Part shown: positions 3,760 to 28,286 of the stretch, one piece after another
Position numbering within the stretch: the stretch's first letter is position 1
Layout: every line of letters begins with the position of its first letter
From: a bacterium
GTDB taxonomy: Bacteria; Patescibacteriota; Minisyncoccia; JAHIHE01; JAGLIN01
Direction: 5' to 3'
DNA: 32,565 nucleotides
Assembly: GCA_030638825.1 (NCBI GenBank)
Contig: DAOWDU010000009.1
Location: forward strand, 1 to 32,565
Notes under the pieces: generated by a model
Databases searched by the model: none
What the model was told of the DNA's origin: nothing
The model's input: the letters and a program-made list of their open reading frames with translations, nothing else
Made by a program: the position numbers and the translations under genes

Positions 3760-4631
3760 ATCCCAAAAACATTAAAAGAAAACGATTCAAAAAACTATTT
3801 CTGTTATTAGCTTTTTTAATTTCTTTAATAACTTTATTTTATTACAGTTTTGTTTTTGAACCAAACAATATTCAAATTGAAAAAATAAATATTGAAATAA
3901 AAAATTTGCCAGAAGAGTTTGAAGGAACAAAAATAGTTCATCTTACTGATTTTCATTCTAGAAACTTTGGCAAAAGAGAAGAAAGAGTCTTAAAAATTTT
4001 AAAAGATTTAGATCCAGATTTTGTTTTTATCACCGGAGATTTTATTGATCATTCCACTAAAGATTTAGATTCCTGCCAAAAATTCTGGCGAAAATTAAGC
4101 AACCAACATCAAGGAAAAGTTTTTGGTGTTTTAGGAAATCATGAACACTGGCTTAAATCTCCGGATATTTCTGCGATAAAAAGAATGCTAGAAAGAAATG
4201 GCATTTCTATTTTGAATAATGAAAACAGAAAAATATATCTCGGAGGTAGAGACGAGGCATTGCCTCGTCTCTACATTTATTTAATCGGTGTTGACGATCC
4301 TGATTCGGAATTAGACGACTTGCCAAAAGCGATGATTGATACAGAAGAAAATATCCCCAAAATTTTATTAGCGCATTCGCCAGATATTATTGATAATTTA
4401 CAAGGAAAAAAAGTAGATTTAATTTTAGTGGGACATACACACGGCGGACAAATTGTCCTTCCCTTTGTAAAACCATTTTGGGTTCCCACAAAAAACCGCG
4501 GCAAATACGCCAGCGGTTTGTTTGAAGTTAATGATACTTATTTATATGTCAATCGCGGAATTGGCTTAGCTCCAACTCTCCCAGCAAGATTTAACTGTCC
4601 ACCTGAAATTACGGTGATAGAATTAAAATAG
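3756..4631 (+). CDS. Membrane-anchored metallophosphoesterase (YkuE-like)
   Basis: 291 residues. One N-terminal membrane segment (about 13-32) is followed by a calcineurin-like phosphoesterase domain with the full di-metal set: LTDFH (Asp65, His67), TGDFID (Asp95), GNHEHW (Asn128, His129), AHSPD (His207) and GHTHGGQ (His227, His229). YkuE-type enzymes act on phosphoesters at the membrane; the substrate here is unknown. The start overlaps the znuB stop, so it is expressed with the metal transporter, which may simply supply its metal cofactor. Residues 164-173 (GRDEALPRLY) are encoded exactly by a 29-bp palindrome, an in-frame insertion between two predicted strands that leaves the active-site motifs untouched. 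Confidence 0.85.
   Translation: MNPKNIKRKRFKKLFLLLAFLISLITLFYYSFVFEPNNIQIEKINIEIKNLPEEFEGTKIVHLTDFHSRNFGKREERVLKILKDLDPDFVFITGDFIDHSTKDLDSCQKFWRKLSNQHQGKVFGVLGNHEHWLKSPDISAIKRMLERNGISILNNENRKIYLGGRDEALPRLYIYLIGVDDPDSELDDLPKAMIDTEENIPKILLAHSPDIIDNLQGKKVDLILVGHTHGGQIVLPFVKPFWVPTKNRGKYASGLFEVNDTYLYVNRGIGLAPTLPARFNCPPEITVIELK
4246..4274. repeat. 29-bp palindrome inserted inside the phosphoesterase frame
   Basis: Same arms as 2906-2934 (14 of 14 bases), centre T instead of C. It sits inside an intact coding sequence and supplies ten residues without a stop or frameshift. Confidence 0.9.
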
Positions 4632-5879: not shown

Positions 5880-8429
5880 GATCTCTAACTTTCCACTTTT
5901 AATCTTCAACCTAATCTTATCCCCTTCTCCAATCTTTCCGTCAATAATCTTCTCCGAAACTAAATCTTCAACCATTTCCTGTAAATTCCGACGCGCTAAT
6001 CTGGCGCCCTCATTGGGATCAAAACTTTTCTTGCTAATGTAATCAAGCGCTTTCTGGTCGGCGCTTATTTTAATATTGTTATTTTTAAGCAGGCGAATTT
6101 TGAAATCATTAAATTGCATTCTGACAATGTTTTTTAGATTAGCTTCGCTTAAGGGATTGAAAACTAAAACTCTGTCAATTCTATTTATAAATTCAGGACT
6201 GAGTATTTCTTTCAATTCCTTTAAAACTGCGTCTTTCGTTTCTATATATTTATCTCTGATTCTATTTTTCTCTTTACTCTCGCTTATTTTTTTATTTTCG
6301 CCAAATCCCCACTTTGCTTCAGAAGTCAATTGCTCTGTGCCAATGTTAGAAGTCATAATAATTGTTGTGTTTCTAAAATCCACTTTTCTGCCAGAGGCGT
6401 CTGTCAGTTCTCCATCTTCAAAAATTTGAAGCATTAAATTGAAAACATCAGGATGAGCTTTTTCAATTTCATCAAATAAAATCACAGAATAAGGATGCAA
6501 ACGAACTTGCTCTGTCAATTTTCCTCCCTCTTCATAACCAACATATCCCGCGGGAGCTCCAACCAAGCGAGAAACATTATGCTTTTCCATAAACTCGCTC
6601 ATATCAACTTTAATCAAGGCGTCAGATTTTTCGTAAATCGTTTCGGCGAGAACTTTTGCCAGCTCTGTTTTTCCAACTCCGGTCGGTCCTAAAAACATAA
6701 AAACGCCCGCTGGTCTATCAGCGTTCGCGACCCCAGAACGGCTGCGGCGAATTGACTTTGCGATCACGCTCACCGCTTCGTCTTGTCCTTCTATTCGCTT
6801 TTTTAATTCTTTTTCTAAATTCTGTAATTTTTTCCGATCGTCGGAAACTATTTTCTTGACAGGCACGCCCGTCATTTGCCTAATAACTTCCGCGACATCT
6901 TCTCGTCCAACCGCTTCTTTTATTTTGATTTTATTTTCCTTCTCCTGAACCTCGCGCATTTCTTTCAAATGTTTCTTTAATTTACTTTCTTTTTCTTTCA
7001 TTAAAAGCGCTCTGTCATATTCCTCATTGTCAACCGCTTTTTCTTTTTCAGCTTTTAATTCCTTTAATTCTTTTTCAAGTTCTTTTATTTCTTTTAAATA
7101 ATTTTTGCCAGTGTGCCTGCTTCTTACTAAAGACGCCGCCTCGTCAAGAACATCAAACGCTTTGTCTGGAAAAAATCGGTCATTGATAAATCTCTGGCTC
7201 AGCTCAACCGCGGAACTGATTGCTTCTTCTTCTATATCTAAATTATGATGAGCTTCATAAATATTTCTTAATCCGCCTAAAATCTTTTTTGTGTCTTCTG
7301 CGCTTGGCTCTTCAATCAATGCCATCTGAAATCTTCTTTCCAGCGCCGCGTCTTTTTTGAAATACTTCCGATATTCATCTAAGGTCGTCGCGCCGATACA
7401 GGAAAGCTTTCCTTGCGACAAGGGCGGTTTCAAAATATTCGCCGCGTCCAAACTCCCCCCTCCCGCGCTTCCCGCTCCGATGATCGTGTGAATTTCATCT
7501 ATAAATAAAATCACCTCTGGATTTTCCTGCGCTTCAGAAATCACATCTTTCAAACGCGCTTCAAATTCTCCGCGATAAACCGCTCCCGCGATTAATAATC
7601 CAAGATCCAAAGAATAAATTTTTTTGTTAGAAAGATTAACTGGAACATCGCCCTGAGATATTCTCTGCGCCAGCCCCTGCACAACCGCGGTTTTCCCCAC
7701 GCCCGGCTCACCGACAAGAATTGGATTGCTCTTTGTTTTGCGGCTCAAAATATTTATTGTCTTATTTATTTCTTCTTCTCTCCCGATAATTGGATCAGTA
7801 TTCTTCTTCTCAAATTCATTTATTAAATCCACGCAGAAATATTCCAATGCGGACTGCTTTTGGTTTGCGGAAGGATTCTCTGCCATCATCCCGTTTATTA
7901 TATTTCCTGACATTAAATTGGGAGAAGCTACTTCTTTAGCTTTTCCCGCAAGGTCAAAAACATCAACAAAATCAGAAAATCGAGCTGAACTTTCCATTAA
8001 CACTTTTAATTTCTCTCGCAATTCATCCTGTTTAATTCCCAAAGAGAGAAGGGTTTCTGCTACCTTTTTATCTTTACTAACCAGAATTGCGTAAAGCAAA
8101 TGATCCGTACCAACATAATTATGCTGATAACGGCTGGCGATCAGAACCGCTTTTTTAAAAATATTTTTAAATTCTGCCGATAATTTCAGGCTCCACTTTT
8201 TTGTCTTCGGCATTTTATCTATAATCTCCCGCAACGCTTTTGGATCAACATTTTCGCCCGCCAGCACGCTATAGCCAATACTCCCTTTCTGCATCATCAA
8301 ACCAAAGAAAATATGCTCCACGCCAATTGACTGATGCTTAAACTCCTGCGAAAGTATCTCCGCTTTTTCAATCACGCTCTTCAGATGCGCGGTGAATTTG
8401 TTTTGAATTTTAGGGGGAAAGATGTTCAT
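5874..8429 (-). CDS. clpC: ATP-dependent Clp protease ATPase subunit ClpC
   Basis: 851 residues, full length for ClpC/ClpA. The cytoplasmic double-ring unfoldase threads proteins into ClpP. In order: tandem Clp-N repeats (about 8-145); D1 with Walker A GEPGVGKT (240-247) and Walker B ILFIDEIH (307-314); a charged coiled-coil middle domain with a UVR-like segment (about 445-500), which marks ClpC rather than ClpA; D2 with GPTGVGKT (581-588) and ILFDEIE (650-656). The ClpP-docking loop appears as WGF (707-709), close to the usual LGF. ClpP and an adaptor (McsB/MecA) are not in the window. The likely -10 TATAAT (complement of 8447-8452) overlaps the end of a 40-bp palindrome. Confidence 0.95.
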   Translation of the reverse strand: MNIFPPKIQNKFTAHLKSVIEKAEILSQEFKHQSIGVEHIFFGLMMQKGSIGYSVLAGENVDPKALREIIDKMPKTKKWSLKLSAEFKNIFKKAVLIASRYQHNYVGTDHLLYAILVSKDKKVAETLLSLGIKQDELREKLKVLMESSARFSDFVDVFDLAGKAKEVASPNLMSGNIINGMMAENPSANQKQSALEYFCVDLINEFEKKNTDPIIGREEEINKTINILSRKTKSNPILVGEPGVGKTAVVQGLAQRISQGDVPVNLSNKKIYSLDLGLLIAGAVYRGEFEARLKDVISEAQENPEVILFIDEIHTIIGAGSAGGGSLDAANILKPPLSQGKLSCIGATTLDEYRKYFKKDAALERRFQMALIEEPSAEDTKKILGGLRNIYEAHHNLDIEEEAISSAVELSQRFINDRFFPDKAFDVLDEAASLVRSRHTGKNYLKEIKELEKELKELKAEKEKAVDNEEYDRALLMKEKESKLKKHLKEMREVQEKENKIKIKEAVGREDVAEVIRQMTGVPVKKIVSDDRKKLQNLEKELKKRIEGQDEAVSVIAKSIRRSRSGVANADRPAGVFMFLGPTGVGKTELAKVLAETIYEKSDALIKVDMSEFMEKHNVSRLVGAPAGYVGYEEGGKLTEQVRLHPYSVILFDEIEKAHPDVFNLMLQIFEDGELTDASGRKVDFRNTTIIMTSNIGTEQLTSEAKWGFGENKKISESKEKNRIRDKYIETKDAVLKELKEILSPEFINRIDRVLVFNPLSEANLKNIVRMQFNDFKIRLLKNNNIKISADQKALDYISKKSFDPNEGARLARRNLQEMVEDLVSEKIIDGKIGEGDKIRLKIKSGKLEIC

Positions 8430-14087: not shown

Positions 14088-14162
14088 GGTGGCTATGGTG
14101 TAGCGGTAACACTAGAGGTTGTGGTCCTCTCGTCTCGGGTTCAACTCCCGATAGCCACCCCA
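14088..14162 (+). tRNA. tRNA-His (GTG), integration target
   Basis: G-1 at 14088 with acceptor GTGGCTA/TAGCCAC, C73 at 14159, anticodon loop TTGTGGT in stem AGAGG/CCTCT giving GTG, and T loop TTCAACT. Unlike the two tRNAs before it, CCA is encoded (14160-14162). Its 3' half is overlapped on the other strand by the serine recombinase gene, as expected when an element has integrated here. Confidence 0.95.
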
Positions 14163-15746
14163 ATCGGAAAAAGCAGGCGCAAAAGCCCTGCTTTTTGTTT
14201 TGGTTGAGCGGAAATCCGTCGGTTCTAACCTTACAATTCCGTTTTCTTCTATTTTACTGAGGTTGGAAATGGGGATTAACCATTCTACTGGTTCTATGCT
14301 GAGTTCACCACCCTTAAGGTTGTAAATTTGCCCCAAGGCTGATAGAATCTCCCTTTTAGCTTGTAAGTCCCCATTAATAAACCTTTCCCTGGCATAAGCG
14401 GCAAAGTTGAACGCTTTTTCCACTAAATCAACCCAGTTTTGTCCTCTATCCTGACTTTGATCTAATTTCGCTCTTATCTTGATAATTTGATTCTGCAGTT
14501 CTTTTCTTTCTTTCACAAATTCATCGTCATCAATAAGATCTCTTAATCTTAACTTAGTGAGATTGTCTAATTGATTTTGCAGTCCTAAATATTTTTTGTT
14601 TAGCATTTCATATCCTTGATTGCGAGCTTCTATTTCTTTTTCGTTATTTCCTCTAATCACATCCAATGCCCATTCTTTAAATTCTTCCGGGATTGTATAT
14701 TTTTCAATTTCGTTAACGATCTGCTCTTCTAAATTATCTAGATTTATTGTCGGTTCAGCGCATTTAATTTCTTTTTTTCTTCTTGTACAGCGATAGTAAG
14801 TATAAGTCGCGTATTCCTTTTTGCTTTTGATAAATTTTCTCTTTTCTTCTGCCGTTACTAAACATCCGCAATTACCACATCTGATAATTCCCGTAAACGC
14901 GAATGCGTGAGTTTTAGCTTTCGGCTTATCTTTCTTTCCTAATAATTCCTGCACTCTATCAAACTCATCAACAGTAATCATCGGCTCATGTTCGCCTTTA
15001 TGTATTTTGCCATTGTATTTAAAATATCCATAATAAAAAGGATCGCCAAAAATTCTGTAAATCTCACTTGCAGACAATGGTCTGTTTCCGCCCCGTTTTG
15101 TTTTTCTTGTTAAATAACCCCATTCGTTATTCGCTATATTTAATATCTTTGGTGGTTGATAATTGTCCGTCAACATTAAGTCCCACATTTTTCTGACTAA
15201 ATTAAATCTCTCTTCGTCTTTTACAATAATCTTTTCTATTACATCATTTTTATATCCTTGCGTAGCTTTACTTGGAAACCATCCTCTCTGGACTTTGCCT
15301 TCAAGTCCTCTTTTTGTATTTTTTCTTAGGTCCAAAATAAACTGATTGGCCATTCCGCTTTCCACGCTGAACATCAAAACATTATCCTCTGGAAGATATT
15401 GTTTATCAATGGTCTGTATCGCTTTGATAGTTCCCTGTTGCAATAACCAATTTATTTTACCGCTATCAACTGGATTTCTGGACAAGCGATTTATCTGCCA
15501 GCACAATATTCCATCAGCTTTCCCTTTTTCAATTCTTTTCAGCATATCTTCAAAAATAGGTCTGGCATTTGGTTGTTTTGCCGATTTAGATTCCGTAAGA
15601 ATTTCTACAATATCCAAATCCAAATCATTTGCCAATTCTTTCAAACGATTTGTTTGATCATCAATAGATTGCACTTGCCTATCTTCGCTCTCCGATGATT
15701 TTCTGGCATAGAGAAAATATTTTATTTTTGTTTCATCTTGTTTCAT
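14112..15746 (-). CDS. Large serine recombinase (integrase)
   Basis: 544 residues. It catalyses site-specific integration and excision through a serine-DNA covalent intermediate. The N-terminal resolvase domain (about 8-150) has YARKSSES with the nucleophile in Ser17/Ser18 and the INRLSRNPVDSGKI helix. A recombinase domain follows, then a zinc ribbon with Cys290, Cys293, Cys320 and Cys329, and a coiled-coil region (about 375-430) typical of directional control. The last 16 residues, WGGYRELNPRREDHNL, are read from the antisense strand of tRNA-His; Trp529 is the complement of the CCA end. So the present C-terminus is created by the integration site. This gene almost certainly moves the island to its right. 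Confidence 0.93.
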   Translation of the reverse strand: MKQDETKIKYFLYARKSSESEDRQVQSIDDQTNRLKELANDLDLDIVEILTESKSAKQPNARPIFEDMLKRIEKGKADGILCWQINRLSRNPVDSGKINWLLQQGTIKAIQTIDKQYLPEDNVLMFSVESGMANQFILDLRKNTKRGLEGKVQRGWFPSKATQGYKNDVIEKIIVKDEERFNLVRKMWDLMLTDNYQPPKILNIANNEWGYLTRKTKRGGNRPLSASEIYRIFGDPFYYGYFKYNGKIHKGEHEPMITVDEFDRVQELLGKKDKPKAKTHAFAFTGIIRCGNCGCLVTAEEKRKFIKSKKEYATYTYYRCTRRKKEIKCAEPTINLDNLEEQIVNEIEKYTIPEEFKEWALDVIRGNNEKEIEARNQGYEMLNKKYLGLQNQLDNLTKLRLRDLIDDDEFVKERKELQNQIIKIRAKLDQSQDRGQNWVDLVEKAFNFAAYARERFINGDLQAKREILSALGQIYNLKGGELSIEPVEWLIPISNLSKIEENGIVRLEPTDFRSTKTKSRAFAPAFSDWGGYRELNPRREDHNL

Positions 15747-15875
15747 ATAATTGTAATAAAACTCAAATGGATAACATTGACTAATCTTATATATTCGCTA
15801 ATTAGATCAGCAACAACATTATACCGCTATTTTTCAATAAGGCTAGCAGATTTTCCGAGTTACAAATTCCTCTAT

Positions 15876-16388
15876 TTAAGGCAACAATTTATCCATCTTT
15901 TTCATTATTTCTTTCAAATCTTCACTTGCGTCTGCTTCCGACTTGTCTTTGAAATCTTCTATTATTTTTAACCACGCCATTACTTCCGGGGCCTTGCCGG
16001 TCTTCATTGCTGTTTTGCCCAACGCCATTATTACATTCGGCGTGATCATTTTCGCCCATCTCTTAATACTGCCATATATCAAATTCTCATCAATCAATAT
16101 CTTATTCCATTCTGTACAAGTCCCGATTTTTATCTTAAATCTTTTCGCAAATTCTGTCTGTGTTTTAATCTCAAGCATTAATATTGACAACTCATCATCT
16201 ATTCCAAACTTTTCAAGTGTTGCCCTATTTACCCCTTTCAACATAGCTGGCAATGACTTCCAGATGATATAGGTCTGGAACTCGGCACTCTTACGAACGC
16301 TTTTTTCCTCATCAATCTCCTTTGCCCTATCTCTAATTTTTGCCGTTATTTGCCGTTTCGTTTTTGTCGTTTTTTTTAATCTTTTCAT
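15876..16388 (-). CDS. HTH protein, phage terminase-small-subunit-like
   Basis: 170 residues. The first 30 residues are very basic (MKRLKKTTKTKRQITAKIRDR). The core TQTEFAKRFKIKIGTCTEWNKI (about 82-103) reads as a helix-turn-helix of the type found in small terminase subunits and the phBC6A51-like insertion-element HTH family. A helical C-terminal half follows and ends in the acidic SEADASEDLKEIMKKMDKLLP. No large terminase or capsid gene is in the window, so a role as DNA-binding accessory of the recombinase, which lies 129 bases downstream on the same strand, is as plausible as a phage role. Assignment is by motif impression. Confidence 0.55.
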   Translation of the reverse strand: MKRLKKTTKTKRQITAKIRDRAKEIDEEKSVRKSAEFQTYIIWKSLPAMLKGVNRATLEKFGIDDELSILMLEIKTQTEFAKRFKIKIGTCTEWNKILIDENLIYGSIKRWAKMITPNVIMALGKTAMKTGKAPEVMAWLKIIEDFKDKSEADASEDLKEIMKKMDKLLP

Positions 16389-19671: not shown

Positions 19672-20361
19672 TCATTTTCGCATTTTTAATTCCCTTACGC
19701 CTTTATTATGTAATTTTCGTAATTCTTTGTCTTGAATATTGGCATTTGCTAAAGTATTATAAATCTCATCGCGTTCAGCGTCGGTAAATACCTGAACTTT
19801 ATAATTTTCAATTTTTCTTACAATATCGCGCGCATAACCAACTGAATCTGTTCCTGAAATTTTCAACTTTCCGGCATTTGGAAATATGATAAAAGACAGT
19901 ATTTGCGCTTTTGGATATTTAGATTTTACAAATTCCTCAATTGCTTTTATGTGAGCATAGTTTTGTCGCAATGGATTGTAAAATCTTTCTTTGTATTTAT
20001 ATATAACTTGTGTCCAATATTTATCGTTTGCGTTTCCAAAAATCCATCCTTTGTATGATTTCGTTTCAATGCAAAATATGCCATAATTTGAAACAACAAC
20101 ATGATCAAGCTGAGTCATATTTAAATTGCCGTTGGAAGGCAATAACAAATCATCTAAAACTTTGTAATGAGCCAGATCAAGATTGAATAATTTTCTTGAA
20201 ACAAATTTTTCTCCAATTAGTCCTTTTAAATATGGGAGTTTTATTTTGATGATTGCCATAATTATTAGCGTAACTGCCATCACAATCCATACTTGCCACA
20301 AAGAAAGAAACATGGTTAATAGTCCCTTATTTGTTTCATCTGCCATACTATTCCAATCCAT
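19672..20361 (-). CDS. Membrane-anchored NERD (nuclease-related domain) protein
   Basis: 229 residues. An N-terminal membrane helix (about 20-40) is followed by the NERD domain: GLIGEKFVSRKL (Gly50, Glu51), QLDHVVVSNYGIF (Asp86, His87) and IETKSYKG (Glu99, Lys101). These match the D-ExK pattern of the PD-(D/E)xK nuclease-like fold, so the catalytic set seems intact. NERD proteins are found with defense and plasmid genes and are thought to act on DNA or RNA. It is the last gene of the leftward operon, 147 bases after the PIN-like gene, separated by a short palindromic region. The C-terminal 40 residues are charged and helical. Confidence 0.8.
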   Translation of the reverse strand: MDWNSMADETNKGLLTMFLSLWQVWIVMAVTLIIMAIIKIKLPYLKGLIGEKFVSRKLFNLDLAHYKVLDDLLLPSNGNLNMTQLDHVVVSNYGIFCIETKSYKGWIFGNANDKYWTQVIYKYKERFYNPLRQNYAHIKAIEEFVKSKYPKAQILSFIIFPNAGKLKISGTDSVGYARDIVRKIENYKVQVFTDAERDEIYNTLANANIQDKELRKLHNKGVRELKMRK

Positions 20362-22497: not shown

Positions 22498-22608
22498 TTA
22501 ATTATTTTCAATTATTTTAATCTCCTCTTCTGTTAAATAATAAAGTTTATAAACCATCTCATCAATCTCCCCCTCCAACTTCCCCGTGTCCGCGCTGGGA
22601 TTGTCTTT
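22498..22608 (-). pseudogene. Orphan C-terminal tail of a DNA methyltransferase (copy A)
   Basis: Without a start codon, the minus strand reads KDNPSADTGKLEGEIDEMVY and then KLYYLTEEEIKIIENN and TAA. This is the typical end of many N6-adenine methyltransferases and type IIG enzymes (NPxADTxxLExEIDxxVYxLYGLTEEEIxIVE). Nothing else of such a gene is present. It lies between the 266-aa gene and the PIN-like gene. Confidence 0.7.
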
Positions 22609-22612
22609 TTTA

Positions 22613-23413
22613 CTACTCTTCAAAATAATGAGGGCTTTTCATTAAATAGAAATTTTTCACCTTCTCGTTCCTTGAAATTAAATCACAAAGCATTTGGATA
22701 ATATTCATATTAACCAAGAATCCTATCATGTAAAAAGTCCATAATTCTTTTTTATACCCAATTGAATTCTTTTTTGCTTTCCATATATTATTATGCAGGG
22801 TTCCAATAGAAAGATTAGCATTAAAATTAGTATGTCCAAAGTTGCACACATCAGCATAAGTTGATGTAAAAATATTCTCATCATTTTTAATTTTTTCTTG
22901 TTCCTCCTTATACTTGCCATAACAAGTCACATCCTTAAAAACCAAATCAAGTTTTTCAAACATCGTCATTATATTAATGGCTTTTACATTACCAGCGGGA
23001 TAACTTCCTGCCTCACGATTACCGAGGTGGAGTATATTTATTTTAGAAATTATTTTTTTATAATTTTCATTATTATAAATGAGATGCGTTACATATCCCA
23101 AAATAGCAGAAATTTCCAAAAATGACTTTAGTGTTGCATAGTATGTAGGAAAATTATTACTATTTAATGCAAGTACCATTCCCTCTTTTAACATAAGAGA
23201 CCTAAGAAGAGTTTCGCTTTGTAATATCTGTAATCGTGATTGAAATGCTTTTTCAATCGGTTCGGTATAATCAGTCATTGTTATATCTGTATAAATATAA
23301 TCCTTAATTGAATCCCTAAATCCATCTATACAATCAAAATCATCTTTAGAGTTTATCTTATTTTTAATATTTTCATGTAATTCATACCTATTAATTTTTG
23401 TATTTTTGTACAT
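22613..23413 (-). CDS. Unknown protein, 266 aa, in the restriction operon
   Basis: No family recognised with confidence. The protein is helical and soluble. Notable segments are LRSLMLKEGMVLALNSNNFPTYYATLKSFLEISAILGYVTHLI (about 70-113) and YADVCNFGHTNFNANLSIG (about 186-204). A helical bundle with an E-(x)n-H pattern resembles HEPN/DUF5677-like proteins, but no RxxxxH is evident. Lying between type III Res and the membrane PIN-like protein, it is probably a defense accessory or effector. Its stop falls just where an orphan methyltransferase tail begins, and another such tail precedes its start by 9 bases, as if the gene had been exchanged as a cassette. Confidence 0.6.
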   Translation of the reverse strand: MYKNTKINRYELHENIKNKINSKDDFDCIDGFRDSIKDYIYTDITMTDYTEPIEKAFQSRLQILQSETLLRSLMLKEGMVLALNSNNFPTYYATLKSFLEISAILGYVTHLIYNNENYKKIISKINILHLGNREAGSYPAGNVKAINIMTMFEKLDLVFKDVTCYGKYKEEQEKIKNDENIFTSTYADVCNFGHTNFNANLSIGTLHNNIWKAKKNSIGYKKELWTFYMIGFLVNMNIIQMLCDLISRNEKVKNFYLMKSPHYFEE

Positions 23414-23422
23414 AAATTCAAT

Positions 23423-23516
23423 TTAACTATTTTCCACAATTCCAATCTCCTTTTCTTCCAATCCATACAACTCATAAATCATCTCATCAATCCCCCCCCA
23501 ACTCCCTCGTGTCCGC
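23423..23516 (-). pseudogene. Orphan, frameshifted methyltransferase tail (copy B)
   Basis: It matches copy A in order: ADTREL, a run of G, then IDEMIYELYGLEEKEIGIVEN and a stop. Relative to copy A two bases are missing in the G-rich run, so the ADT and IDEM parts are in different frames. It begins at the Res stop codon and ends 9 bases before the 266-aa gene. Confidence 0.65.
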
Positions 23517-26278
23517 TATTTCAATAACTGTTTAGTAAAAATTTCTTCAAAATCATGTTCCTTGTTTTTGTTAAATAATGGCAACCCGATCAATTTATAA
23601 TCCTTGCTTTCTGCTTTTAACAAATTGCCATCGCCATACTTATCAGTAATCTGCTGTAAAAATTCCTCTTTCCATCCCTCTTTGCTTTCTTTAAATCCGC
23701 CTTCTCTATCCATAAACTGACCGCCCTTTGGCTCAATAAAAATTTGATAGTATAAATTTTTCTTTTTGCCTTTCAAAAACAGCAAAAAATCCGGATTAAA
23801 TCCTCTCCCTTTTTCAAAATCATAAATTTTATACACTTCCTCATTTCGGAGTAAATAAACCTCGTCGTATTTTTCATTCAAATTCCCAATTCTATCTTTC
23901 AAAAATTCAAATAACCCAATTTCTTCGCTTGTGCCAACAAAACCATCCAACACATACCATTTGTTTTTTAATATTTCGTTTTCAAGATTCTTATCATATT
24001 TTTTCGTGTTTATATTTTTTTCTTTCGGCTCTCCAAGTAATTCTTCAAATGTCATGGCTTTAAATTGAGTTCCCTTATACGGATTTGCGATTTTTTTAAG
24101 CTTCCTTGCAAATTCATCAAAAAATTCCAGCAATAAATCCAGCTTTTCTTCATTGCTAATATCATTAAAATTATTTTTTGAGGTGATTATATTGATCTTG
24201 AAATTGCCAATAAAATTATCCGCAAGCTCGTTAATGCTATTTATATTTAATTCATTCTGTAAATTATCAAAACGCAAAAGCGATAAATCTTTTGTCGCTT
24301 TTTTATTAATTGCCTTTGCAATGATATGTTTTTCAAAATCTTTAAATTTTTTACTTATCGTTCTACTGTCTTTTTTCAAGCTTTCCACAAGAGTTTCATC
24401 TTCTTCTTTATCTAAAATAATTTGCTGTTCTTTTATCGCAAACTCTTTCATTTTATATTCAAAAACAAATTCCTTTTCCAATTCGGCTAAAGTCCTTTTT
24501 CTTTTTTCTGGATTATCAATTTGTTCGTTTTTCCAAACTTTTATTTCTTTGAAAAAATCAGTTCTCTTAAATTCATCTTTAAGCGCAAATTTTTTTATCT
24601 CGCGATTGTCTTGAATAAATCCTTGATTTTTAAGTTCTCTCTTTAATTCGTCAAGATAGCGATGATCGTCATCGCTATGATAATAAAATTCTTCTAGCAC
24701 TCTAAGCGGATTTTGCAATTCCTCATCAAATTTTCTTTTATTTTTTTCATGTTCGTTATAGGCAAAAGGGAAATACCGCACACCTCGTCCGATTAGCTGT
24801 ATTTCCTGAACCGTTGTTTGTCCAGCGACTCTACTGCCCGTTTTATGGCTTTCATCTCTGCCTTTATATAGACGAACGATATCGAAAAGATTTAAAACAT
24901 CCCACCCTTCAGTCAATCTTTTCACAGTGAAAATTGCGCGAATATGATTATTTTTGTCTTCTAAACTGTTAAGTAATTGTTCCTGCTCATCCGTTGTTCT
25001 TTCTTTGGTAGTCGCTTTATTATCCTTCGAATTTGTGATAATGCAATTTCTTTCGGCAAATTCGTCTTTGATATATTTCACAATTTCACGAATACTGATC
25101 TTTTCTTCTTCGATAAATTTTACCATTTGTCGTACTCGGCTTTTGCCTTGCTCATATACCTTGTTTGAATTTGTATCATCCTGTTTTATGCTATTTTCAA
25201 TATCCTTTAAAAAATTAAGGTCAGCAGATTTTAAATTGCTAATGACAGTTAAGAATTCTTCATAATCCTTTTTTGATTCTTCAATAAGCTTGCTTCTAAA
25301 AAGTATTACCGGTTTGAAATTGGCAATGTTATTCTTGAGAGCAATTTGGTGGCGATACCAATTAAAAAGCAAGGCGAGCAGAATTTTTTCTTTCTTTTTT
25401 AGCGAAGTGGAAACTAAATTTATTTCTTTGGTATAGCCGGCTTTTAGAAAATCTACAAGTTCAAATTTATAAATTGTTTTCGTGCGATATTTTTCTATAA
25501 CAGTTTCTATTCTAGGAATTGTAGCCGTGAATTCTAATAGAACATTTTTATTTTCACTATCTTGTTTATTTTTCCCCCTCTTGAGAATTTTATTTATGAT
25601 TGTATTTTCCCAGCTTCTTTCTACATCTTCGGCGCTGGCGTTTTCTTTTAATTCGGTGTCTATATTAAGTTTTTCTTGTCCGTTCTTTTTCTTTTTCGTT
25701 GAAGCGTTAAAATTATGCGCTTCATCGCCGATCATTACTAAGTCCTTTTTCTGTAAATCCTCAAGCGTAACCGAATTTTCTTTTGCCAAATAAACCGCGT
25801 TGTGGAGTTTATGGATTGAAGTAAATTTAATTTGTATATCGTCTGTGTCGTCAAAAGTTTCTACTTTGCGGATATTAATAATTTTGTCTTCAATTGTAAT
25901 ATTTTGGCGAAAAAGATATTTGGTGTGATTTTTATTGATAAAATTATTTTCAGTTTTATCAATAATATTATTTTGATTGACAAAGAAAATAAAATGCTTG
26001 TAGCCCTTTTTGTAATAATACAAAATCAAAGCCGCCATCAGTATAGTTTTGCCAGTGCCGGTGGCCATATTAAACATTAGATGCGTTGGCTCAAAATTAT
26101 TTTCTTTTTCCTTAATCTTTTCTTGAGTCAAAAAATTTTCCAGCGCTTCTTTTTGCCACCGCCACAAATTATGCCGGATATTTTCCGCGATAAAGGCGGG
26201 AATTTCTGGCTTGCTGATTCCATAATCAAAAGCTTTTTCCTTAACTATGCCGGATAAATCTTTATTTGAATCATACAT
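23516..26278 (-). CDS. res: Type III restriction enzyme, Res subunit
   Basis: 920 residues. The ATP-dependent helicase-nuclease cuts DNA when two unmethylated sites meet. The N-terminal helicase has Walker A MATGTGKT (71-78), DEAH in VMIGDEAHNF (185-188), a motif III-like LEFTATIPR and motif VI-like IQLIGRGVRY. The C-terminal nuclease has NPDFLLF (828-834) and IEPKGG (848-853), the D...ExK of type III Res enzymes. Length is normal, so it looks functional. It starts one base after the Mod stop, so the two are translated together. Its stop codon coincides with the start of orphan tail B. Confidence 0.93.
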   Translation of the reverse strand: MYDSNKDLSGIVKEKAFDYGISKPEIPAFIAENIRHNLWRWQKEALENFLTQEKIKEKENNFEPTHLMFNMATGTGKTILMAALILYYYKKGYKHFIFFVNQNNIIDKTENNFINKNHTKYLFRQNITIEDKIINIRKVETFDDTDDIQIKFTSIHKLHNAVYLAKENSVTLEDLQKKDLVMIGDEAHNFNASTKKKKNGQEKLNIDTELKENASAEDVERSWENTIINKILKRGKNKQDSENKNVLLEFTATIPRIETVIEKYRTKTIYKFELVDFLKAGYTKEINLVSTSLKKKEKILLALLFNWYRHQIALKNNIANFKPVILFRSKLIEESKKDYEEFLTVISNLKSADLNFLKDIENSIKQDDTNSNKVYEQGKSRVRQMVKFIEEEKISIREIVKYIKDEFAERNCIITNSKDNKATTKERTTDEQEQLLNSLEDKNNHIRAIFTVKRLTEGWDVLNLFDIVRLYKGRDESHKTGSRVAGQTTVQEIQLIGRGVRYFPFAYNEHEKNKRKFDEELQNPLRVLEEFYYHSDDDHRYLDELKRELKNQGFIQDNREIKKFALKDEFKRTDFFKEIKVWKNEQIDNPEKRKRTLAELEKEFVFEYKMKEFAIKEQQIILDKEEDETLVESLKKDSRTISKKFKDFEKHIIAKAINKKATKDLSLLRFDNLQNELNINSINELADNFIGNFKINIITSKNNFNDISNEEKLDLLLEFFDEFARKLKKIANPYKGTQFKAMTFEELLGEPKEKNINTKKYDKNLENEILKNKWYVLDGFVGTSEEIGLFEFLKDRIGNLNEKYDEVYLLRNEEVYKIYDFEKGRGFNPDFLLFLKGKKKNLYYQIFIEPKGGQFMDREGGFKESKEGWKEEFLQQITDKYGDGNLLKAESKDYKLIGLPLFNKNKEHDFEEIFTKQLLK

Positions 26279-26279
26279 A

Positions 26280-28286
26280 TTATTTGGAATTATAAAATTC
26301 TTCGCTTAAAGCAATATCCTCTTTTGTAAGTTTATATTTTTTGTCCGCTCGTTCGCTGAAATTCACATACATTTGATTCATATCAAGCATTTCAACGAAA
26401 AGTTTTTTCTGCTTATTTAAACTAAGATTTTTAAACCCCTCCTCTTTAATTGTCTTTTCCTTAAATTCTTTTGTCTTGACATTGTAATTTAGAAAATATT
26501 TTTCATAGAGTTCATTAAAAAGTTTTTCCAATTCGCTTAAACTTTTTGCTTTCAATATTTTTTCTTTTGCTTCTTCGTTCCATTTTGCAAGTTCAAGATA
26601 AACAAAATCGCCTCCACCTTTCCAATTAACGATTTTTGAAATTCCAGACTGATCATCGCCAATAACCTCTTTTAATCTTGATTCTGGATTGTTTCCCTCG
26701 TAATCAAGCTGCTCGACGCCAATATATTGAATATTTAATTTATGAGCAACAGCACATGTTGTTCCACTTCCTGAAAAAAAATCGAGTACAATGTCATTCT
26801 TTTTAGCTCCAGCAACTTCAATTATTTGCTTAATAAGTTTTTCTGGCTTCTTCCCGTTCTTTAATTTAACACCCCCTTCACGAGCGATTCCCGCCCAAGA
26901 GATATGGTTCCAATAATTTGTTAATAATTCCGTAACTTTTAATTCTCCGTCAATTTCCTTTATTTTGCTTGAATAAAAAGCAAGTGCACCACCATTTATT
27001 AAATATGCATATGATCCATCTCGTTTTTTATATAGAATTATCTCGTTACGATCCTTTCTTGATTTTTCTTGCAATTCTCTAACTTTTTCTGAGGGTTTAT
27101 GTAAATCTCGTATACTTACAACATTTTTTGCATGAGAAAAAGCAAACTCAGAAATTAATCTTAACAAAACTAAATCAGAAACAGCTCCAAATTTTTTCTT
27201 TAGCTCTTTCTCGTTTTTGTAGCCATTTTCTTTTAAAACTTTATCTTTTAGAGATAACAGTTTCCAATTTTTTATATTTCCTTTGTTTTCTAAATATAAA
27301 TTGTAATTTTTATGATATCCAGTTTCAATATAATTTTTATGAAATCCAAAATTGCTTTTGCTTTTTGTATAGAATAGAATGAATTCCGTCACATCAATTG
27401 GACCGGGATTGACTGCTTTAAATCCTGATGCTGCAGATACCTTTACAGAAATAATTTGAGCTTTATTTTCTGATCCAAATATTTCATCCATAATGGTATT
27501 AAGATATGCAATTTCATGATGATCAATCTGCACAAATATGGCACCTTCTTTAGCTAACAATTCATGCGCTATTTTTAATCTATTTTTCATAAAAGTCAGC
27601 CATGTTGAATGATTGAAATTATCATTATAACCAAAATCATCTTTACCAATATTATACGGCGGATCAATATAAATCAGTTTTACTTTTCCGGCAAATTGCC
27701 CTTTTAAACTATGGAGGGCAAGCAGATTATTACCTTTGATAATCAAATTTTCTTTTATTGTGCCATCTTTATCTCTTTTAAGCTCCTTTACTTTCTCCCC
27801 GCCCTTAACAGTATATCTTTTCCAATTAACCAACGCCTTAGAATCATAAAGCCGGTCAATTTCATCTTTCGCCAAAACTTCATTAAAAAATATCTCATTT
27901 CTTTTTTGATCTTCCTTCGTCATCCCGCCTTCCAAAACACAATCCTTAAAAGGCCAATCCAAAACCACCTCATTTCGCTCGCTTAATAATTTATTCCCGA
28001 CCCGCAAGCCGATCTTGTTTTGATATTGCGTATAAGAATTATCCAGCTTGTTTTCATCAATAAAAAATTTCAAATCATTTTGCTTCAAAACAAAAATATC
28101 TTTAACTTTAATAAAAAACTTTTCTTTCATTTCTTTGTCGCCGAAGAGTAACTCAATAATTTTCTCATCCAACTTATCAATCAAATCTTTCAAAAGAGTT
28201 TCGTTAAGCTTCTTTGTTTTCTCATCCCAAAGCCGATTATCTTTTTTAAGAATTTTATAAAACTTGTTTTTAAATTTGTTTTTCAT
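26280..28286 (-). CDS. mod: Type III DNA adenine methyltransferase, Mod subunit
   Basis: 668 residues. It recognises the target site and methylates adenine N6 with S-adenosylmethionine. DPPY (208-211, in YIDPPYNIG) comes before the SAM-binding FSGSGTT (504-510), the order of beta-class type III Mod enzymes. The region between (about 290-470) is the target-recognition domain. Residues 1-110 are a charged helical extension. No simple-sequence tract suggesting phase variation is visible. It is the third gene of the operon, 21 bases after a small HTH gene and one base before Res. Confidence 0.93.
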   Translation of the reverse strand: MKNKFKNKFYKILKKDNRLWDEKTKKLNETLLKDLIDKLDEKIIELLFGDKEMKEKFFIKVKDIFVLKQNDLKFFIDENKLDNSYTQYQNKIGLRVGNKLLSERNEVVLDWPFKDCVLEGGMTKEDQKRNEIFFNEVLAKDEIDRLYDSKALVNWKRYTVKGGEKVKELKRDKDGTIKENLIIKGNNLLALHSLKGQFAGKVKLIYIDPPYNIGKDDFGYNDNFNHSTWLTFMKNRLKIAHELLAKEGAIFVQIDHHEIAYLNTIMDEIFGSENKAQIISVKVSAASGFKAVNPGPIDVTEFILFYTKSKSNFGFHKNYIETGYHKNYNLYLENKGNIKNWKLLSLKDKVLKENGYKNEKELKKKFGAVSDLVLLRLISEFAFSHAKNVVSIRDLHKPSEKVRELQEKSRKDRNEIILYKKRDGSYAYLINGGALAFYSSKIKEIDGELKVTELLTNYWNHISWAGIAREGGVKLKNGKKPEKLIKQIIEVAGAKKNDIVLDFFSGSGTTCAVAHKLNIQYIGVEQLDYEGNNPESRLKEVIGDDQSGISKIVNWKGGGDFVYLELAKWNEEAKEKILKAKSLSELEKLFNELYEKYFLNYNVKTKEFKEKTIKEEGFKNLSLNKQKKLFVEMLDMNQMYVNFSERADKKYKLTKEDIALSEEFYNSK

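Follow-up and report, generated by a model that had tools for sequence, protein, structure and literature searches.

Two orphan copies of the 3' end of an adenine methyltransferase gene separate unrelated genes of a defense operon in a member of the Patescibacteriota. The same tail recurs at many other loci, often without its enzyme, and it is probable that it acts as a shared-homology recombination joint through which gene cassettes are exchanged. These results bear on the clustering of defense genes in islands and on the speed with which unrelated defense genes swap places there. A recurring coding joint makes cassette boundaries predictable from sequence alone and makes new defense genes discoverable as whatever stands between two tails. 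It also suggests that a restriction-modification gene can serve as the anchor for a growing set of toxin-antitoxin cassettes, with no integrase involved.

Two orphan tails in a defense operon

The stretch of DNA analysed here (the window) comprises 32,565 nucleotides of contig DAOWDU010000009.1 (assembly GCA_030638825.1). Its minus strand carries a defense operon in the order Mod, Res, 266-aa gene, 661-aa gene and NERD gene, with the following features:

26280..28286, minus strand: type III methyltransferase Mod; its C-terminus differs from the tail, so it is not the tail source
23516..26278, minus strand: type III restriction subunit Res; its stop codon adjoins tail A
23423..23516, minus strand: orphan methyltransferase tail A, in the interval between Res and the 266-aa gene; frameshifted at a run of eight C, 23492-23499 on the plus strand
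23474..23516, minus strand: 5' half of tail A (ADTREL..IDEMIY), common to tail B and the C23 enzyme (below) in alignments
23426..23473, minus strand: 3' half of tail A (ELYGLEEKEIGIVENS), putative partner of the downstream 266-aa gene by analogy with the cyanobacterial arrays
22613..23413, minus strand: 266-aa gene, family unknown, putative single-gene cassette between tails A and B
22498..22617, minus strand: orphan methyltransferase tail B, in the interval between the 266-aa and 661-aa genes; frame intact, own start codon absent
22549..22590, minus strand: 5' half of tail B (DTGKLEGEIDEMVY), putative recombination tract; 40/42 nt identical to the C23 tail
22501..22548, minus strand: 3' half of tail B (KLYYLTEEEIKIIENN); 62% identical to C23 and 83% to an orphan tail of another genome
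20509..22494, minus strand: 661-aa gene, 3' of tail B; PIN-type nuclease resemblance, by eye
19672..20361, minus strand: NERD nuclease-domain gene, after the 661-aa gene

Both tails consist of the last 30-39 codons of a methyltransferase. Tail B can be translated in a single frame as SSKKDNPSADTGKLEGEIDEMVYKLYYLTEEEIKIIENN followed by a stop; its first few bases overlap the stop of the 266-aa gene, and 3 nt separate its end from the ATG of the 661-aa gene (22494). The first base of tail A is the last base of the Res stop codon, its translation runs ADTREL, a run of eight G, then IDEMIYELYGLEEKEIGIVENS and a stop, and a gap of 9 nt separates it from the ATG of the 266-aa gene. Around the 8-G run, tail A is two bases short relative to tail B. 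The two are 77% identical over 99 nt, and their local alignment score of 88 compares with 18.6 on average and 35 at most after shuffling. A sequence-only reading of the window had placed two orphan tails of one methyltransferase within 22498-23516, after Res and after the 266-aa gene, each just before the next start codon and one of them with a two-base frameshift. The translations and the alignment bear out all of this, and the interval does cover both tails together with the 266-aa gene. When intact enzymes were searched against the window by tblastn, the two tails alone were returned, and a catalytic methyltransferase domain upstream of them is absent.

The genes that the tails delimit have few recognizable relatives. 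The 266-aa gene has no Pfam match and no homologue among the 92 relatives searched, where the 661-aa gene has one distant homologue. The predicted 661-aa protein bears a PIN-nuclease-like pattern (LDTNIVFSLLG ... FLTADRKLF), followed by hydrophobic segments that are probably membrane-spanning, with no confident Pfam match. No sister genome with the window locus in another state was found when homologues of the 266-aa and 661-aa genes were sought in the same 92 relatives. The defense region is bordered on one side (window 14089-16388) by a large serine recombinase gene (14112-15746, minus strand) that overlaps tRNA-His (14089-14162, plus strand), an overlap which suggests that the defense region of the window is an element integrated at tRNA-His.

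Intact frames that end in the tail are present elsewhere in the same genome, one of 1062 aa on contig C23, whose tail is 70% identical to tail B, and one of 908 aa on contig C50. A Pfam check covering some of the intact tail-bearing enzymes found Eco57I and TaqI_C domains in the enzyme of a related genome (L041) and in two enzymes heading cyanobacterial arrays. The tail source is the C-terminus of an Eco57I/TaqI-type adenine methyltransferase (PF07669, PF12950), a type II family whose intact copies include those of this genome and those that head the cyanobacterial arrays, whereas the window copies retain only the final codons.

Comparison with these enzymes suggests that tail B is composite. 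Tail A is 85.5% identical to the tail of the C23 enzyme over 76 nt. Tail B matches it at 40 of 42 nt (95%) before the conserved core and at 30 of 48 (62%) after it (Fisher p = 2e-4, with the halves fixed beforehand by the core); an unguided breakpoint test of the same pair gave p = 0.07. Between C23 and C50 the pattern is reversed, with 69% identity before the core and 88% after it (unguided p = 0.002). Since C23 shares the 5' half of tail B (95%) and also the central block of tail A, A and B are, as judged from these alignments, separate junctions and not the outcome of a single local duplication. A single local duplication, which the sequence-only reading had named, for a complete methyltransferase gene, as the competing origin, is rejected: A and B are 77% identical, while the 5' half of tail B is 95% identical to C23. 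The block shared in the window, ADTGxLExEIDEMVY, corresponds to ADTSELEKAID, the exchange tract of the cyanobacterial arrays described below.

Orphan tails and their neighbours in other genomes

The survey sample was 384 genomes of the class, many of them metagenome assemblies; a tail match was counted as orphan in an open frame of <100 aa and as part of a whole enzyme in a frame of >=350 aa. The 74 tail matches comprised 36 orphans, 35 in frames of >=350 aa and three in between, two of which run off a contig end while the third is fused to a downstream frame. A 51-aa segment of the catalytic body, used as control in the same 384 genomes, gave 0/50 matches in frames of <350 aa, so that orphans are in strong excess among tails (36/74 versus 0/50, Fisher p = 3e-11). 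Among strong matches to the N-terminal 50 aa, 1/25 was orphan; weaker orphan heads were few, occurred in genomes G014 and G017 and were far rarer than tails. Remnants drawn from the whole gene, the pattern of random pseudogene decay, were therefore not what the body (0/50), head (1/25) and tail (36/74) counts revealed, and simple decay is rejected because of the body control. Locus L036 of G014 (oriented 2869-2931, 3979-4090 and 7532-7655) holds orphan heads that consist of a promoter-like leader and the first 20-28 codons, with the body absent, and that are 83-88% identical to the 5' end of the intact gene.

Among the 92 relatives, orphan tails were approximately as frequent as enzyme-borne ones, and several were paired at a distance of ~0.7-1.5 kb. 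At L035 (G011:C15) and L082 (G213:C73) the contig ends at an orphan tail, or no more than 1 base from it, which is what tails that are repeated, or that vary within the sampled population, would be expected to produce. When GTDB genome contigs were scanned for the tail, the distribution extended to 80 loci spread over many phyla; about 39 of the tails there were orphans, a part of these in partial frames of 100-300 aa, and 50 were on long frames. In a plasmid collection, where annotated arrays were sought, matches were found in 1 and 3 records, each on an annotated methyltransferase gene.

The genes around the tails share their orientation and lie close to them: 65 of the 66 scored flanking genes are on the tail's strand, and the median distance is 13 nt on the upstream side and 16 nt on the downstream side. 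Upstream of the tails, unrelated restriction or defense genes predominate, among them type III Res (ResIII) or Mod, R.PabI, R.AlwI, the HaeIII endonuclease and methyltransferase, Mrr, Tsp45I, the C-terminus of a type I restriction subunit, Fic and unknown families. Other islands with orphan tails between unrelated genes, whose existence the sequence-only reading had set as a test, proved plentiful, the neighbours being mostly defense genes. The phase of the upstream frame relative to the tail takes all three values (about 10/14/9), and translational readthrough is therefore not the rule; extension of upstream proteins by readthrough or frameshifting is ruled out as a general explanation by this spread.

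Some loci retain the enzyme. At L041, L082 and L087 one or two genes stand between an intact methyltransferase, complete with its tail, and an orphan tail further downstream. L089 and L090 have one Mod-tail junction in common but different downstream genes; although the two belong to different families, the Mod stop codon stands at the identical position at the tail edge, and for this reason Mod and tail appear to have travelled together. Units that carry the tail at their 3' end may therefore move as well.

Cassette arrays and mosaic tails in the Pseudanabaena family

The isolate Pseudanabaena sp. FACHB-1998 (L199) carries an intact Eco57I/TaqI_C methyltransferase followed by eight orphan copies of the tail, which alternate with toxin-antitoxin genes in the order PIN, DUF433, PIN_3, RelE, DUF433, MNT/HEPN, a second RelE pair and DUF433; all nine tails of this genome (9/9) lie within the one array. 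In its family the tail occurs in 19 of 38 genomes and arrays in about a dozen, with up to about nine tails and with cassettes that are mostly toxin-antitoxin pairs. Twenty fetched regions yielded eleven recurrent cassettes (A-K) between tails, in an order that differs in each species, for example M-A-B-A-C-D-E in L259 and M-F-x-A-I-y-H-I-D in L273. The arrays thus consist of small same-strand cassettes, each with a repeat and permuted between genomes. Toxin families among the cassettes tested, which came from those other than J (cluster c3), were PIN, PIN_3, DUF5615, YafQ, RelE and HEPN. Other members (L277, L276) have the enzyme with zero or one cassette; these enzymes are 77-88% identical, too distant for breakpoints to be read.

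The tails of the arrays are mosaics that join their neighbours. After ..ID.LVY the tail is of one of two types, YGLTEEEIKIVEGER or YQLTYDEVKIIDPE, the first preceding cassettes A-D and the second E-K without exception where the type is readable. With the type set by the cassette that follows, the last ~20 residues of the enzyme itself depend on the first cassette. Between genomes, identity of the 3' half is 0.88 when the downstream cassette is the same and 0.68 when it is different (0/300 permutations), while sharing of the upstream cassette has no effect on it. The 45-nt 5' half as a whole has no link to the upstream cassette; only the stretch before it is linked. Column by column, the upstream-cassette signal (z about 6-8) stops at about ATGCTGATAC and the downstream-cassette signal (z about 7-9) starts at about TTTAGTTTAC, and the ~45 bp between are associated with neither cassette and weakly with genome identity (z 1.6-2.5). 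Because the upstream flank and the 3' half each follow their own cassette and the ~45 bp follow neither, this comparison of sequences places the exchange inside the tail, and the pattern is the one expected of exchange within a common ~45-bp tract.

Individual events agree in outline. A recent duplication of the RelE cassette in L199 (97-100% identical) begins within one tail and extends to the end of the following one, which is itself mosaic. The methyltransferase of L260 differs elsewhere from those of L261 and L273, but its last 98-124 nt give its best DNA match to them. In the Pseudanabaena set L259-L278, the exchange tract contains GCGATCGC (HIP1-like) palindromes. A frameshifted, shorter form of the junction also recurs in this set, in about seven tails with different neighbours.

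A probable recombination joint and its alternatives

In the reading that we favour, the conserved 3' end of a methyltransferase gene, recurring at many loci, would become an exchange site, and exchange inside the tail would insert, remove or reorder the cassettes downstream of it. The moving unit would begin with the 3' half of one tail and finish with the 5' half of the next, and between them would lie a leader and one or two genes of defense or toxin-antitoxin kind. Insertion of such a unit directly after an intact methyltransferase would restore the C-terminus with the cassette's version of the last ~20 codons, and repeated insertions would build arrays. Subsequent loss or replacement of the enzyme would leave orphan tails amid unrelated genes, as in the order Res, tail A, 266 aa, tail B, 661 aa. 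The simplest engine would be RecA-type homologous recombination over ~45-100 bp, since arrays occur without an integron integrase and the tails are not attC-like in folding. We infer the recombination enzyme (RecA), an excised or donor intermediate, live excision and the order of events at the window locus. The rule that the 3' half follows the downstream gene was demonstrated in the cyanobacteria and may extend to the window's phylum, where the Mod-tail junction common to L089 and L090, with its different downstream genes, speaks against it. The joint model is also weakened by tail identities of 65-90%, a low range for efficient homologous recombination.

The sequence-only reading had suggested that defense genes were swapped by recombination in a shared tail, leaving scars as cassette boundaries. 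Recombination within the tail is seen directly in the cyanobacterial arrays and less strongly in tail B, while the swap at the window itself is better described as a probable event. The tails do mark cassette boundaries; however, with a 3' half that moves with the downstream gene, they look like working joints and not only passive scars. More tentatively, the tails may belong to a widespread cassette system without a dedicated integrase, in which the coding 3' end of a methyltransferase would be a universal homology joint for collecting, ordering and exchanging toxin-antitoxin and defense genes within and between bacterial phyla, its C-terminus being rewritten by each new cassette.

The alternatives account for parts of this pattern. 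Were a full methyltransferase deleted at each site, with its 3' end kept as the start region of the next gene, most tails would be expected near a start codon, and most do stop 8-20 nt short of one; several are also frameshifted or contain stops, and at two loci (L034 and L087) a longer piece of the enzyme is kept. Such decay is nevertheless unlikely, given the lack of body fragments and the scarcity of orphan heads in the 384 genomes, the near absence of tail remnants in open frames of 100-350 aa, the many-tail arrays with permuted cassettes behind one intact enzyme, and the tracking of the downstream cassette by the 3' half. Less probable still is that the tail itself has a function that preserves it, as a readthrough C-terminal extension or a required leader of the next gene: tail A of the window and the tail of L046 continue the frame of the upstream gene beyond one stop, but the phases elsewhere are spread and the tails are often frameshifted, truncated or interrupted.

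Two further explanations, each improbable though a little less so than decay, invoke known kinds of mobility. A site-specific recombinase, either integron-like or the serine recombinase of the island, might recognise the tail and move the cassettes, and the integron-like order and single orientation of the arrays, the narrow switch from upstream to downstream association and the recombinase gene beside tRNA-His are in keeping with this. Against it, no full-length integron integrase (TIGR02249) was found in array genomes G384, G398 and G411, and in G000 the sole match was a sub-cut-off tyrosine recombinase; above cut-off the model matched only in array genomes G413 and G418, where the true integron integrases lie on contigs other than the array's. 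An attC-like hairpin is absent from the tails (DNA folding z-scores of four tails: -0.11, 0.41, 0.03 and -1.93), and the junctions extend over ~45 bp and not a single point. Insertion with a long target duplication, by comparison, would give the geometry of enzyme and tail, gene and second tail at L041, L082 and L087, and duplications of the order of 100 bp are described for restriction-modification genes in PMC3874152 and PMC1643837. A fresh duplication would be identical, yet the tails around an inserted gene are often of different type: those of L041 have 50% protein identity, and arrays mix G and Q types. Because neighbouring tails usually differ in type, duplication alone is insufficient, and alone it leaves the fixing of the 3' half by the downstream cassette unexplained. 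It is the nearest precedent, and may have been the founding event.

These comparisons place the tails among, and apart from, several known systems; methyltransferase-tail cassettes themselves have no published description that we found in the open-access literature, which does not prove absence. Some integrative elements enter a gene at its 3' end and rebuild that end, and here too the inserted unit brings its own copy of the target's last codons, but each unit holds just one or two genes, of toxin-antitoxin or defense kind, and an integrase is absent from the cassettes examined. The likeness to integrons lies in arrays whose cassettes share one strand, have one or two genes each and are rich in toxin-antitoxin genes, with a ~100-bp repeat at gene ends, an order permuted between species and each repeat a mosaic of its neighbours; the differences are that the repeat is itself coding sequence, from the 3' end of a methyltransferase gene, without an attC-like hairpin, and that tail arrays are present in genomes without an integron integrase (IntI). 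Insertion of restriction-modification genes with long target duplications, of the order of 100 bp, is described in PMC3874152, PMC1643837 and PMC3031569, the first two of which attribute the work to Nobusato et al. 2000. Linkage to restriction-modification genes and direct repeats of ~100-bp order are common to both cases. Near-identical flanking repeats of ~100 bp, as a young insertion would have, were not seen here, where the window tails are 77% identical and array neighbours often of different type; instead, one coding tail is the joint at many loci in many phyla, its flanking copies are usually of unlike type, and multi-cassette arrays form.
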